A stretch of 64,000 nt of DNA, from contig JAIGNY010000750.1 in assembly GCA_020152595.1 (NCBI GenBank), positions 509,501 to 573,500 of the forward strand, read 5' to 3'. The notes beneath the pieces were generated by a model. The model did no database searches, was not told the DNA's origin, and saw only the letters and a list, made by a program, of their open reading frames with translations. This document shows, one piece after another, positions 52,401 to 61,400 of the stretch. Positions within the stretch are counted from its first letter, which is position 1; every line of letters begins with the position of its first letter. The DNA comes from Chiridota heheva (lineage: Eukaryota; Echinodermata; Holothuroidea; Apodida; Chiridotidae). The position numbers and the translations under genes were made by a program.

Positions 52401-55400
52401 CATGTGGTTCAGTATTCCATCCTGAGTTGCTCACATGAAAGTCTTGCATGCTTACCACTACACTACACTGCCTATAAGTAGAGTGTGGATTTCTTATAAT
52501 ACTTATATTTTGGTCTGTACATAGAGGGGGTAGTTGCTCTTTATGATTGCAATAGAAAATATGTGAAATTACCATTCTAACGATATTTTTGCGTAGGGCA
52601 GTGAACAGGAACTACAATTTTGTCGAAAATTGTTCTTAAAATGGCCAAAAAACATGAAATTTTGCCCCAAAAAGATATTGATGATAGGGGCAGTCAAAAA
52701 GCAAGCGAAATTGGATGCATTGATGTCTTTGGCGATTTCTCACAGGTTTTCAGGCAAAAGCAAGGTCGTTTTTCGTTAAATTTTGTGCATTCTTTAATTT
52801 TCTCTATCTGAACTCATTTTTTTCTTCTCAAAAATCTTCAAAATAACCCCAATCAAAAAAAAACATTTTCTAAAAGAACTATTCGTGCTCTTTCAAATGA
52901 TACCAGATTCACTGCTGTGGGCCTATTTGACAAAACAAAATACTTTTTTGTGCATGCATGTCCAACCGCTGATTTAAGGGTTAAATAAAGTAACTAACCT
53001 TTGAAGAATTGAGTTTTCTTTTAATTTCTACATGAAGAAATTACTCTCTATAGGAAAATTGGTCAAAATTGCCTGAAGCATCTAGACTGCCAATTTCATT
53101 CACACTACACACCGCACAAGCCACCAGCTTGCCAGACCAGTATGCAACCCAATTCCCTGCTGATCATCCTCACTCACTTTAACGTTGACCACAGGCATAC
53201 ACTATAACAACTGTTTACATGCAATGCACGTTTTAATGATAATTGGATAGCCCAAAGGTGCCTTTCATAATGCTCTGCATAGAGGCCCTTTGTTATGAGT
53301 GTAAACAAGCACAGAATACCGGAAAGTCGGGTTGGGGTATCATTATACCGGACTTTTTATATGAAACGTCGGTGTCGGGTACGGAAAACTGTATAGAGAA
53401 ACTTTTGGCATGTATGTGACTCATGACTTACCGAGCTGAATGAGATATTTCATCATAAGGAGCACATTGGCTTCAAAAGTTCATGTTGCTGCTGGTCATG
53501 ACCTTGAGAACCTTTGCGACAGACTGAGGTATGTGCTGCCGAGGTGTCATGCTCTCTCGAAACAAAGGACTCATGATCACATCCATTACATTCCCATGAA
53601 AGACTGGTACGACCCCAGAGCAATCCAAGATGACCAATTTGGTTCCAAAATTACGAGCTAAGTTTGGAGGTACGAAAGTGCAATCTTGAACTCCTGCTGT
53701 AACCGGTGGGGGTAGAAATGTGGAGGGTGAAAGACGGGTGGTGGGGCAGGCCTTTTGCTTGGTTGTAGATGACCCTCTGCAAAAAAACATCATCGCAATC
53801 ACTTCAAGATCATAACATACAAAACGTTCTGTACATAGTTACACCCAGGTACAGAGCTACAAACAGTCATAAATATTTTCTGATACTATTCTCATAACAA
53901 AATTCAAAATGACCTGTAGCGAGTTTCTGTCAGTCTAACAAAAATAAATTGTCTTATAGGAATGATATTCTGTTTGATTTTTTTTCATCCTCCAAGTTGT
54001 ATGAATCAATGGATAAACATAACTTTAGCAACTTACTTTTTTTTTTTATGTATGCTTATTTTAAGAAAGTTTATACTGCACTAAAATTCATCACATAATG
54101 GGGAGTTGTGTACCTGATATTCAAATGCTTTTTATTGAGAATTTCTTCAAATAGTCCCTAAACAGAAAATCAACTTCTTCAGACAAAGATTTGTCTCATC
54201 TACAACTTGCATTTTTGTATGTCACAGACAGGATTTGGTTTGGTTATAGTTTTCAAATATTTTGGAAAAAATTATTTAATTTGGCTACAGAAATACATTA
54301 AAAATGGCTTTGCTTAAAACCAGGAACATCTCAACCTGCATTTAAATGGAGCAGGGCCGGTCGAAGTAAAATTGATCTATTTCTTTATTTTCCAAACCAC
54401 AACACTGTACACAGTTTCAGCTGTTCAAGGCTCCCTCAAGATAACAACTACTCTCACTGGTGTTACATGGTATTTTTAGTCACACACATCAGAATATAAT
54501 GGCATTCCTTTGTAATATAAGTAGTACCCGTAATCAATGCTGGCATTGTTTGTCTTTGCTGCTGGGGAAAGGAAAAATCATAACCAAAAACCAAACGTTT
54601 AGTAGTTCCAATGCATTCTATCATTGTTGGTTGATTTTCAAGTTTTATATGAACTGGCATTGCATAGGCTAGCTATCATGAAATATGCTAAGCAACATAT
54701 ATTCAGAAGCCGTGACCACCTGCATATAAATTAAATAAAACCTGTTGACAACACTTGTATGATGCAAAACATGCAAACGGTTATACATTTATCACTGTTT
54801 TAAGAATTTTACATAAAATCCCACCTACATGACCTCACTACCAAACCAATAGGTCACACATATAAACCATAACTCATCTGTGTACCACATGTGTGCGATA
54901 TGTTTACAAGTTTTGGGAGCACTTTCACATTAAGGCACGTATATCAGCGATACAAGCATGTACACAATTACTGACAAATAACATGCAAGTATGATGCAAA
55001 CATATGGTTGCTATAAATTGATCACTTTTCCAAGTTTTTTCAATTTTATATTAAGCCCCACCCTTTTTTTTCTTTACTTAGAAATATGCATAATATCACC
55101 ACCAAAAACAACAGGGCACACAAACAGACAATGGGTTATCTGTGTACCACATATGACCTGTATTCAATATATTGTCCATGGTATAATTTGCATTATACCA
55201 TGAATATGTATGCAGGCTAACAACATAAATATACCAAGTATGAATCATAACAGACATGTAGTTGTTAAATATGAGTATTTGAATTTTTTACATTAAGCCC
55301 TGCCTACTCATTGACTATGCATAACATCACCACCAAAAGCAATAGGGCACATATACTGACCATGGGTAATCTGTGTACCACATATGACATGAATCCAGTT

Positions 55401-58400: not shown

Positions 58401-61400
58401 GAGGCTTATTTCATCATGAAATGGCCATTTTAAAATTTAAAATGTTTTTTAAGACAATGATTTTTAATATTTCAAATACATCAATTAGAAAACTACAACA
58501 TTTTATTGCAACATCTGAACAATATGGCTGCATGACTTCAATATTCTCATGTGTTATAAATGTTCCTAAATAGGCATGCTTCCGGACTAACTGTACAGGT
58601 GTGGTATGAAATGACAAGAGCCACATATTAGCACATGTTCATAAAGAAAGTGAAAAGTCATCATCGCCCATTCTAAAAACAACAAATATTTACTTTGTTA
58701 TTAATTTGATTAGGAAATGTGAGAATAGTAAGTACCTGAAGAATGTTCTCTGTCATCATTTTCAGATGTAAATTCAGCATCAGAATGTGATTCCAAAGAA
58801 GAATGAGGCACATTTTTACGAAATTCTGTAAATAAAATTATGTAAGAATGAACTGTGAGATAAGTACACTTTTCTCTGTATCATGTCAAGTGAATGGGGC
58901 TCAGCCCAAAATTGGTCAATGGTAGTACAGTCAGACAAAGAACACAAAAGCATCCCTTAAATAACTACCTCGCCAGATCAGGTATCATATTAGAACTGAC
59001 AAGACATTGCATCTCACTCATATTTCCTTATTACAAAATCCCTTTTTCAAGAGTGTATACATTGTCATCAAAAAGCAGGAAAGTTTGAGTAAATTTCATA
59101 ACATTAACATTACATGCTTGTTATGGGAAGCAATGGTTAAATGCAAGCATACTTACAGTAGAGAAAAGTACTGATAATTAATCAAATTTATCAGCCATGG
59201 CCTTCCCCTCATTTTTTGCTTTGGCCCCTTCAATCCTTTTTGGAAGTTAATATACAATATAAACATATGAATATGCACTAACAATGTACCTATCAATGCT
59301 GTGAGTCTGGGTAGTGGTGTATGGTTTGGGATGATATTTTTTTACTTCCTTTTAGTTGTTAATGAACACAGAATATCATAGTTCTGTGATTTTCTGCAGC
59401 ATTCTTTGCACTTTCAGGCACTCAAAGAATACTCTTTTGTAACAGAAACAACCCTGTATTTGACAGTATCTACCAACATGAACTTTAATATACTCAATTC
59501 TTAAATCGACAAAACTGGTTTGAAATGAAGTTACCTTTCCATGGAATGGGCGGTCCCCTCACAAGCTGTCCTTGCTTGTTCGGAATGATGTAATACTTCA
59601 GGTGCTTCTGTTTCTTGGCTTGTGAGATCAGCTTAAGATTTATATGATGAGCAAACTCTGTGAAGTATCGAAAGCCCTTGTCCCCACAACCGATGCAATT
59701 TCCACTAAAACCTGATAGGATGAAAAAAAAAAATCACCATTTCCACCACAGTTCACCATTCACTCCATACTATTCTGTTTATTGCATTTCATGTTTTTTG
59801 TTTTTGTTTCTAATGTTATTTTGTAATTACCAATTTTCCTTTGTATGTAACTCAAATGAAAGATAAATAAATAAATAAGATAAACAAAATAGTGAACATT
59901 TTTTGGATATAACCCTTGTTTGATTCAAATATTACCCACTCTCTTTTAGAAATGAATATGTACACAATTAATTATTCACTATGAAGGAAAGGAAATTGTT
60001 GAGTTTCTTATGGATCTTAAAAACTTTAAAAAGACTGAAATTTCACTATTTTACTCTCCAGCATGTGTAATGGGCGTGTAAATAAACTTACTAAAAGATT
60101 ATTTAAACAACATGTAGAGAAGACCTCAATAAAGAACAGAGGTTTGATACAAAATCATCCTAAACTACTGACATACACAGGTTTTCCTAGACACTAAATT
60201 CCACAGCAACTCATGAAGAAATTCCTCTCTATAGGACAATTGGTCAAAATTGCCTGTAGCATCCAGACTGTCAATTTCACACTACACTGCACAAGCCAGA
60301 CCAGAATGCAACCCAAGCTCATCATCCTCACTCATTTAACTTGTGCATGGGTGCACTTTCAGCATGCAATCCAATTCTCTGTTCATTGTCCTCACTTCTG
60401 CTTGGGTGCACTTTCAGTATGTGGCCACACAACACTGTGACCATGTATGGTCTTCATTACTGAAAGATACATACAGGTCTTAATGATAACATAGAGGTTC
60501 TTTGTTATGAGGGTAAACAAGCTGGTGATACCGGATGTCTGGTTGGAGTATCATTATACTGGACTTTTTATATGTAAAGTCCGGTGTCGGGTACGAAAAG
60601 CTGTATAGAAAAACTTTTCAGCATGTAAAAATTTGACATTTTCAGAGAACTCTAAAAGAGGCACACAAAAATAAATAAATAAAAGACTTTTTAGCCCTTT
60701 ATTACTATCTACCTAATGTGGTGTAGCGGTTATCATACCTGTCTACAGACCACGAGGCCCTGGGTTCAAGCCTGGGGTGGGTAGACACACCAGTGCACCA
60801 CAACTGGTTATCAAAGGCCGTGGACATTGACTTGGTTGTCGATTTTATGTCTGTCCGTAAGTTGTACCCGTGTTCTCGTCCGGGTCGTAATTAAGGGTTT
60901 CCTGATAGCATTGTTACTATCATAAGCGAATACTCAAGCGACGACCCCGTCATTGTAATTGTGTGTTCAAAGGTCGTCGTCGCCATTTATTACTCACCCA
61001 ATAACATCTATACAAGTTATAATTCTTGAGTAATCAGTACTTCTTAACTATTGGAATTCATGACATTACCAATGATACTTATACTTCATGCATGCCCTGA
61101 CTCGATGACACCATGTCTAATAATTAATTCATCCTCATAGTTACTGGCTGTATTCTCTGTTCAACCCTGTCATATTATACATGAGCAGGGTCTTCCTGTA
61201 TTTAATGCGGGCCAATTGTTTCTTTCTTGAACTCTTATAGAAAGGTACCAGACAGGGATAAAATATGTTGTAATGTTTCTTACAAAAATGAGAGATTGGC
61301 TGCTTTCTTTTTGTTTGTGAAGTCAAAATAGTTCAGTGCAATAGTTAAGTTCATTTTGCACAAGCCAGGTTTAGGAAGTTAATTTCCAAATTTTCCGACA

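Follow-up and report, generated by a model that had tools for sequence, protein, structure and literature searches.

Two non-autonomous DNA transposon families of Chiridota heheva share a terminal heptamer array with an inverted pair that differs between them

We analysed a stretch of 64,000 nt from contig JAIGNY010000750.1 of the holothurian Chiridota heheva (hereafter the window), searching the 1.1 Gb genome for further copies of two families of short repeats, families 2 and 3. Both are non-autonomous cut-and-paste DNA transposon families resembling miniature inverted-repeat transposable elements (MITEs), approximately 390 and 430 bp in length, with a 2-bp target-site duplication (TSD). Each carries near its right end an array of four heptamers, two of which form an inverted repeat that can be drawn as a hairpin. 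On balance, and with some reserve, we favour a reading in which this is a predicted transposase-binding array in subterminal position, its inverted pair changing jointly by template switching and/or weak constraint. An earlier sequence-based proposal (the original prediction) had centred on the hairpin, and its underlying claim of a terminal module with an inverted repeat common to two MITE-like families was borne out.

Shared ends and a two-base target-site duplication

The consensus of family 2 is 387 bp in length (76 copies, median divergence 7.5 %) and that of family 3 is 431 bp (27 copies, 4.8 %), both starting with CATGAAG and finishing with CGGCATG. The right end is common to the two families back to approximately 90 bp, with gaps and differences, and the interiors beyond it are unrelated. 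The prediction had described all other internal parts as unrelated, which holds for the interior but not for the left 34 bp, where the families are identical at 27/34 positions. Judging from their length the elements would be without coding capacity.

Copies were collected with a genome-wide right-end pattern that ignores the arm sequence of the hairpin. This gave 575 exact matches against 0 for the reversed-pattern control, and the approximately 100 of these that were listed were used for sampling. The 125 right ends collected comprise 91 found by the end pattern among the matches listed of the 575 (90 loci on contigs C1-C486, one locus having two), 27 from family 3 BLAST loci and seven from the window. 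As 27 of the 34 family 3 copies are the best BLAST hits to the window copy ending at 60625, this sample is biased towards intact modules. The left end was recognisable in 114 of the 125 copies and not found in 11, and after 16 of the 114 had been dropped for a damaged end 98 copies were available for the TSD count.

Flanking dinucleotides were equal in 58 of these 98 copies compared with 9.6 in shuffles, with equal 3-mers in seven copies and equal 4-mers in none. The 2-bp TSD is present in both families (family 2, 47/76; family 3, 11/22) and its sequence is mixed, the 58 duplications including TA (15), TG (8), AA (8), TT (6), GT (4), AT (4) and others. Three pairs of loci (L174/L201, L216/L218 and L137/L146) resemble duplicated insertions rather than independent ones and were retained in this count and in the pair-by-pair counts described below. 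At locus L145 a family 3 copy lies within a family 2 copy; when the family 3 copy and one TA are removed the flanks align ungapped through the junction to the family 2 consensus, and family 3 was therefore mobile after that family 2 copy had landed. At locus L197 the empty site can be aligned across the junction with a different copy of the host repeat, two mismatches lying beside the junction, and that of L199 is less clean, with a gap and mismatches near the junction. A further family 2 copy, L158, lies within a tandem array; the units next to it align across its two flanks once these are joined.

Fixed ends with a TSD of constant length, imperfect terminal inverted repeats (TIRs), short length and high copy number were all found, as in non-autonomous TIR DNA transposons. 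For MITEs in general, shared ends and TSD combined with unrelated interiors point to one machinery. Because this is the arrangement seen here, one machinery for both families is suggested, and a single transposase would move both by recognising the left 34 bp and the right heptamer array.

The heptamer array and its inverted pair

The heptamer STCNGGT is present as four units within the last 90 bp of each consensus (direct, inverted, direct, direct) and nowhere else. In family 2 these are GTCGGGT at 301, inverted ACCTGAG at 321, CTCAGGT at 341 and GTCGGGT at 348, and in family 3 GTCGGGT at 343, inverted ACCGGAC at 364, GTCCGGT at 385 and GTCGGGT at 392. The start-to-start spacing is 20, 20 and 7 in family 2 versus 21, 21 and 7 in family 3, with the array stopping 33 bp short of the terminus. 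Units 2 and 3 are the arms of the hairpin. Units 1 and 4 correspond to the direct repeats originally placed on either side of it, GTCGGGTTGG before and GTCGGGTRCGG after; both are present, although they vary between copies. In family 3, unit 1 is additionally enclosed by a second, short inverted repeat, TGATACC...GGTATCA.

The two families have GTCGGGT as units 1 and 4 alike, while units 2 and 3 differ jointly (CTCAGGT in family 2, GTCCGGT in family 3), which points to a link between the arms of the inverted pair that the other units do not have. The consensus arms, ACCTGAGTT/AACTCAGGT in family 2 and ACCGGACTTTT/AAAAGTCCGGT in family 3, are two paired changes apart. At the level of the family consensuses, therefore, the predicted paired difference is real, the inverted repeat having been kept while its sequence changed. 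Among inverted repeats with a loop of 3-30, the stem is also the longest in either consensus. Shuffling yields a short-looped 9-bp inverted repeat in 38 of 1000 family 2 consensuses and 26 of 1000 family 3 ones, so that taken singly neither hairpin is more than moderately unlikely; the position and layout that the module has in common in the two families are stronger facts.

Transposase binding sites typically appear as short arrays of direct and inverted units close to one end, which is the arrangement here, and subterminal repeats of possible importance have been noted for Buster1 (PMC4298943). The array most likely serves, as double-stranded DNA, as a binding site for the transposase or for an accessory protein; the hairpin would be the inverted pair of a four-unit array, with binding sites accounting for the arms without any fold. 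The joint arm change between families would represent a concerted change, produced by template switching during replication, by weak selection for symmetry or by both. Multibase compensatory changes in stems have been described as a product of template switching (PMC8794818), and a joint arm change is not by itself evidence that the folded strand is read.

The original prediction had taken the paired changes as covariation indicating a maintained DNA or RNA structure, and proposed that paired and unpaired substitutions be compared in further copies. It fails by that comparison, and its support overall is weak at best. Family 2 (91 rows, 9 pairs) has 688 pairs with both bases consensus, 59 pair-breaking single changes and 36 single changes to G-T versus only six Watson-Crick double changes, together with five other doubles and 25 gaps. 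Family 3 (34 rows, 11 pairs) has 329 consensus pairs, 21 pair-breaking singles and 16 to G-T versus four Watson-Crick doubles, with one other double and three gaps. Six rows poorly aligned in the arms (W39677, L152, L199, L219, L228 and L233) were retained in these counts. Such counting is however weak as a test because dead copies mutate neutrally.

Permuting whole right arms among copies (5000 permutations, copy age not kept) gave a mean of 2.16 Watson-Crick doubles in family 2 versus the six observed, a number reached in 73/5000. When eight rows were dropped (the six poorly aligned ones, L201 and L216) five doubles were left versus 1.45 (53/5000), two of them, L175 and L205, being C:G at pair 7. 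This excess is not conclusive and may be overstated, since the permutations do not preserve copy age and old copies change both arms. Family 3 doubles are at chance (four versus 3.36, reached in 2253/5000 shuffles), three of them at a CpG pair. The genome copies thus yielded a small excess of doubles in family 2 but none in family 3.

As dead copies mutate freely, counts of exact arm combinations say more. We counted exact family 2 matches genome-wide with the remaining arm bases held fixed. At pair 7 the canonical G:C pair is present in 418 copies. A C to G change in the right arm is found unpaired with left G in 29 copies and paired with left C in one (29/30 unpaired), and left C with right C, also unpaired, in four. 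The right-arm change (29/447) is far commoner than the mirror change in the left arm (4/422, p 1e-5), so most of the 29 G-G copies are unlikely to be private mutations. They suggest either multiplication of elements whose stem had been weakened or repeated conversion of the third heptamer by its GTCGGGT neighbour, and the unpaired stem variant would appear to be inherited. Left C is not significantly commoner in the presence of right-arm G (1/30 versus 4/422, p 0.29). At pair 4, six copies with left G have right A (four) or right G (two) and none has the pairing C, and in family 3 the exact combinations are nine canonical, one unpaired and none compensated. One pattern for a third family, with the same right-end spacing and another spacer, gave a single match compared with one forward and one reverse match for its reversed control.

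Two origins considered for the mismatched copies were set aside. A single mismatched subfamily defined by the base at position 361 appeared at first (4/6 versus 1/70) and then failed in 14 further copies (0/14). There was also no support for mismatched copies being older, the 19 copies with right-arm G (18 unpaired) having a mean of 3.7 differences versus 4.6 in 47 others (p 0.23) in a rough comparison, since 14 of the 19 had been selected on exact arm matches and the other copies mostly on exact end matches.

These counts bear on whether the hairpin itself is functional, with the transposase reading an extruded or single-stranded hairpin, pairing being selected in source elements and the sequence left free. 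The two paired changes separating the consensuses, the rank of the stem as longest inverted repeat, the joint change of units 2 and 3 without 1 and 4, and the family 2 excess of doubles in the reduced set would all follow from such a role. The unpaired family 2 copies moreover retain a 6-bp core, ACCTGA/TCAGGT, which leaves room for a hairpin role. The 35-base deletion junction of a hairpin-less window copy (ending at 39677) has no second exact match genome-wide, and hence there is no sign that elements without the hairpin move. It is however difficult to reconcile strict selection for pairing with 29 unpaired copies that appear inherited, with the lack of compensation at pair 4, with family 3 copies showing neither compensated arms nor doubles above chance, or with a third-family pattern that did not rise above its control. 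We consider a functional hairpin unlikely.

Less likely still is a purely mutational concert, in which one arm is rewritten from the other by template switching and the palindrome renews itself without function. One switch by this documented mechanism could alter several bases, as between the families, and matched and mismatched arm variants do coexist. It would leave unexplained, however, a four-unit array kept at nearly equal spacing despite unrelated interiors, and the absence of an excess of doubles among family 3 copies implies that the process is not frequent. We think it extremely improbable that the hairpin belongs to an RNA, whether as a transcript's terminator or processing signal or as a small RNA. 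As RNA the right end of family 3 does form a good fold (-37.6 kcal/mol for 105 nt, a value without shuffle control), but family 2 has a single short stem only, the window contains no Rfam match at the gathering threshold and the elements bear marks of DNA transposition (TSD, empty site).

The binding-array reading that we favour also has points that weigh against it. Protein sites with one specificity should change in all four units, yet units 1 and 4 did not. The TIRs, which start with CATG, are short and imperfect (14/22 bases in family 2, 15/22 in family 3). The family 2 excess in the reduced set leans towards a coupling of the arms. Two left-end patterns used to look for an autonomous element returned one ordinary family 3 copy and no match, respectively, in a search that was not exhaustive.

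Copies in the window and their surroundings

The right end GAAACTTTTC[G/A]GCATG has six matches in the window with ≤ 3 mismatches, compared with 0.66 expected, and a seventh (53412) with one base missing. The seven copies comprise five of family 2 (right ends at 12537 on the minus strand, 32174, 33608, 39677 and 57550) and two of family 3 (53412 and 60625). The three copies originally assigned to family 2 do belong there, but the list omitted those ending at 57550 (with hairpin) and 39677 (hairpin lost). A TSD match is present in five of the seven. Six still show a recognisable inverted repeat, although that of one (53347) has decayed, and the copy ending at 39677 lacks it. Folded as single-stranded DNA the six stems have z values of -0.21 to -4.01 relative to dinucleotide-shuffled controls.

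The minus-strand family 2 element (CATT...CATG, 383 bp, 12537..12919) is flanked by CA/TA without a TSD match and carries the hairpin ACCTGAGTT ... AACTCAGGT at 12577..12603 (minus strand, z -3.10) with a perfect 9-bp stem. This is the only one of the five copies cited in the original prediction to have such a stem, and the full strings quoted for the two families, ACCTGAGTTTT...AAAACTCAGGT and ACCGGACTTT...AAAGTCCGGT, each have 0 occurrences in the window, being composites of arms from different copies. The remaining elements are on the plus strand. Family 2 elements of 396 bp (31779..32174) and 382 bp (33227..33608), both with TSD TG/TG, have hairpins at 32108..32134 (right arm AACTCGGGT, with CTCGGGT, one T-G wobble, z -2.92) and 33548..33574 (right arm AACTCAGTT, with CTCAGTT, one mismatch, z -1.65). 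The 358-bp element at 57193..57550 (TSD AA/AA) has its hairpin at 57484..57510 (right arm AATTCAGGT, one wobble, z -2.28), and the 351-bp element at 39327..39677 (TSD AA/AA) has lost the hairpin by deletion.

The first family 3 element (382 bp, 53031..53412) has the TSD TA/TA and a heptamer array at 53326..53384 consisting of GTCGGGT, inverted ACCGGAC, a damaged third unit and GTCGGGT. Its decayed hairpin, ACCGGACTTTT...GAAACGTCGGT at 53347..53373, has an intact left arm and a broken right arm (AAACGTCGGT) and does not fold better than shuffled sequence (z -0.21). The second (414 bp, 60212..60625) is flanked by CT/TA without a TSD match and carries the hairpin ACTGGACTTTT...GTAAAGTCCGGT at 60558..60585, with the left arm ACTGGAC (z -4.01). 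Adjoining this copy is a tRNA-like sequence, GTGGTGTAGCGGTTATCATACCTG...GGTTCAAGCC (60715-60790), perhaps the head of a tRNA-derived short interspersed element, in which ARAGORN calls no tRNA.

Ten open reading frames (ORFs) on both strands were tested, of which five, all on the minus strand, match GREB1 domains (12013-12327, 25015-25329, 32170-32547, 43010-43327 and 53476-53838; PF20692 three times and PF20688 twice, that at 43010 below cut-off). A GREB1-like gene probably has exons in the window and, from the positions of these ORFs, some element copies would probably lie in its introns. A large minisatellite with a 30-bp unit occupies 19760-24970 and shows very strong strand asymmetry (GC skew -0.586 over 20001-24000). 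A reverse-transcriptase-like ORF at 28833-29639 on the minus strand (PF00078, below the curated cut-off) is probably a decayed retroelement.

Relation to known transposons

Plant CACTA elements carry subterminal repeats in both orientations. Animal CACTA elements (TRC, including SmTRC1 and Spongebob; EnSpm/CMC) resemble families 2 and 3 in having a 2-bp TSD, found in 7 of 14 SmTRC1 copies (PMC1636069) and given as 2 bp for Spongebob (PMC4298943). They differ in their ends, TRC elements beginning with CCC and plant elements with CACTA (PMC1636069) whereas families 2 and 3 begin with CATG. The TSD length therefore fits animal CACTA/TRC but the end sequence does not, and a superfamily is not assigned on this basis.

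Tc1/mariner transposons, whose Stowaway-type MITEs are short and non-autonomous, have a 2-bp TSD that is exclusively TA, whereas only 15 of the 58 duplications here are TA. Helitrons are without terminal inverted repeats and TSD; they and helentrons are similar to families 2 and 3 in having a hairpin near one end but differ in that a 2-bp TSD is seen here. The ISL2EU group of PHIS transposons also has a 2-bp TSD and animal hosts (PMC4482050). It duplicates, however, the AT of A|AT|T, with ends that usually begin with GG (PMC4482050), compared with AT in 4/58 and CATG ends here. The mixed TSD and the CATG ends fit neither Tc1/mariner nor ISL2EU.

The domain PF13359 (DDE_Tnp_4) has 90 matches in the genome, several in open frames of 300-515 codons. 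These matches were not tied to the two families, the contigs shared with the approximately 100 right ends listed of the 575 being only C282, C368 and C544, at distances of > 100 kb, as judged by eye. The end and TSD rules of ISL2EU likewise do not fit families 2 and 3. In other collections a 17-base end matched seven viral contigs; it also matched at least 115 stretches of prokaryote DNA, for which an estimated 60 or so would arise by chance in 257 Gb.

Elements with CATG ends and a 2-bp TSD are named in no title or abstract of the literature searched, which proves little. Families 2 and 3 are ordinary in kind and may be new as families. Hairpin-guided transposition is known from IS200/IS605. 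It is highly improbable, in our estimation, that families 2 and 3 represent a eukaryotic counterpart of it, an undescribed CATG-ended group with a 2-bp TSD whose transposase would recognise an asymmetric end via a hairpin or palindrome of variable sequence.

The paired changes between families 2 and 3 could easily be taken for proof that the fold is functional, but the same genome has common and seemingly multiplied unpaired variants. The two families usefully illustrate how an inverted pair can change in concert within a likely array of binding sites, and they provide an element exactly defined by its ends, 2-bp TSD and heptamer array that is usable for seeking the missing transposase.

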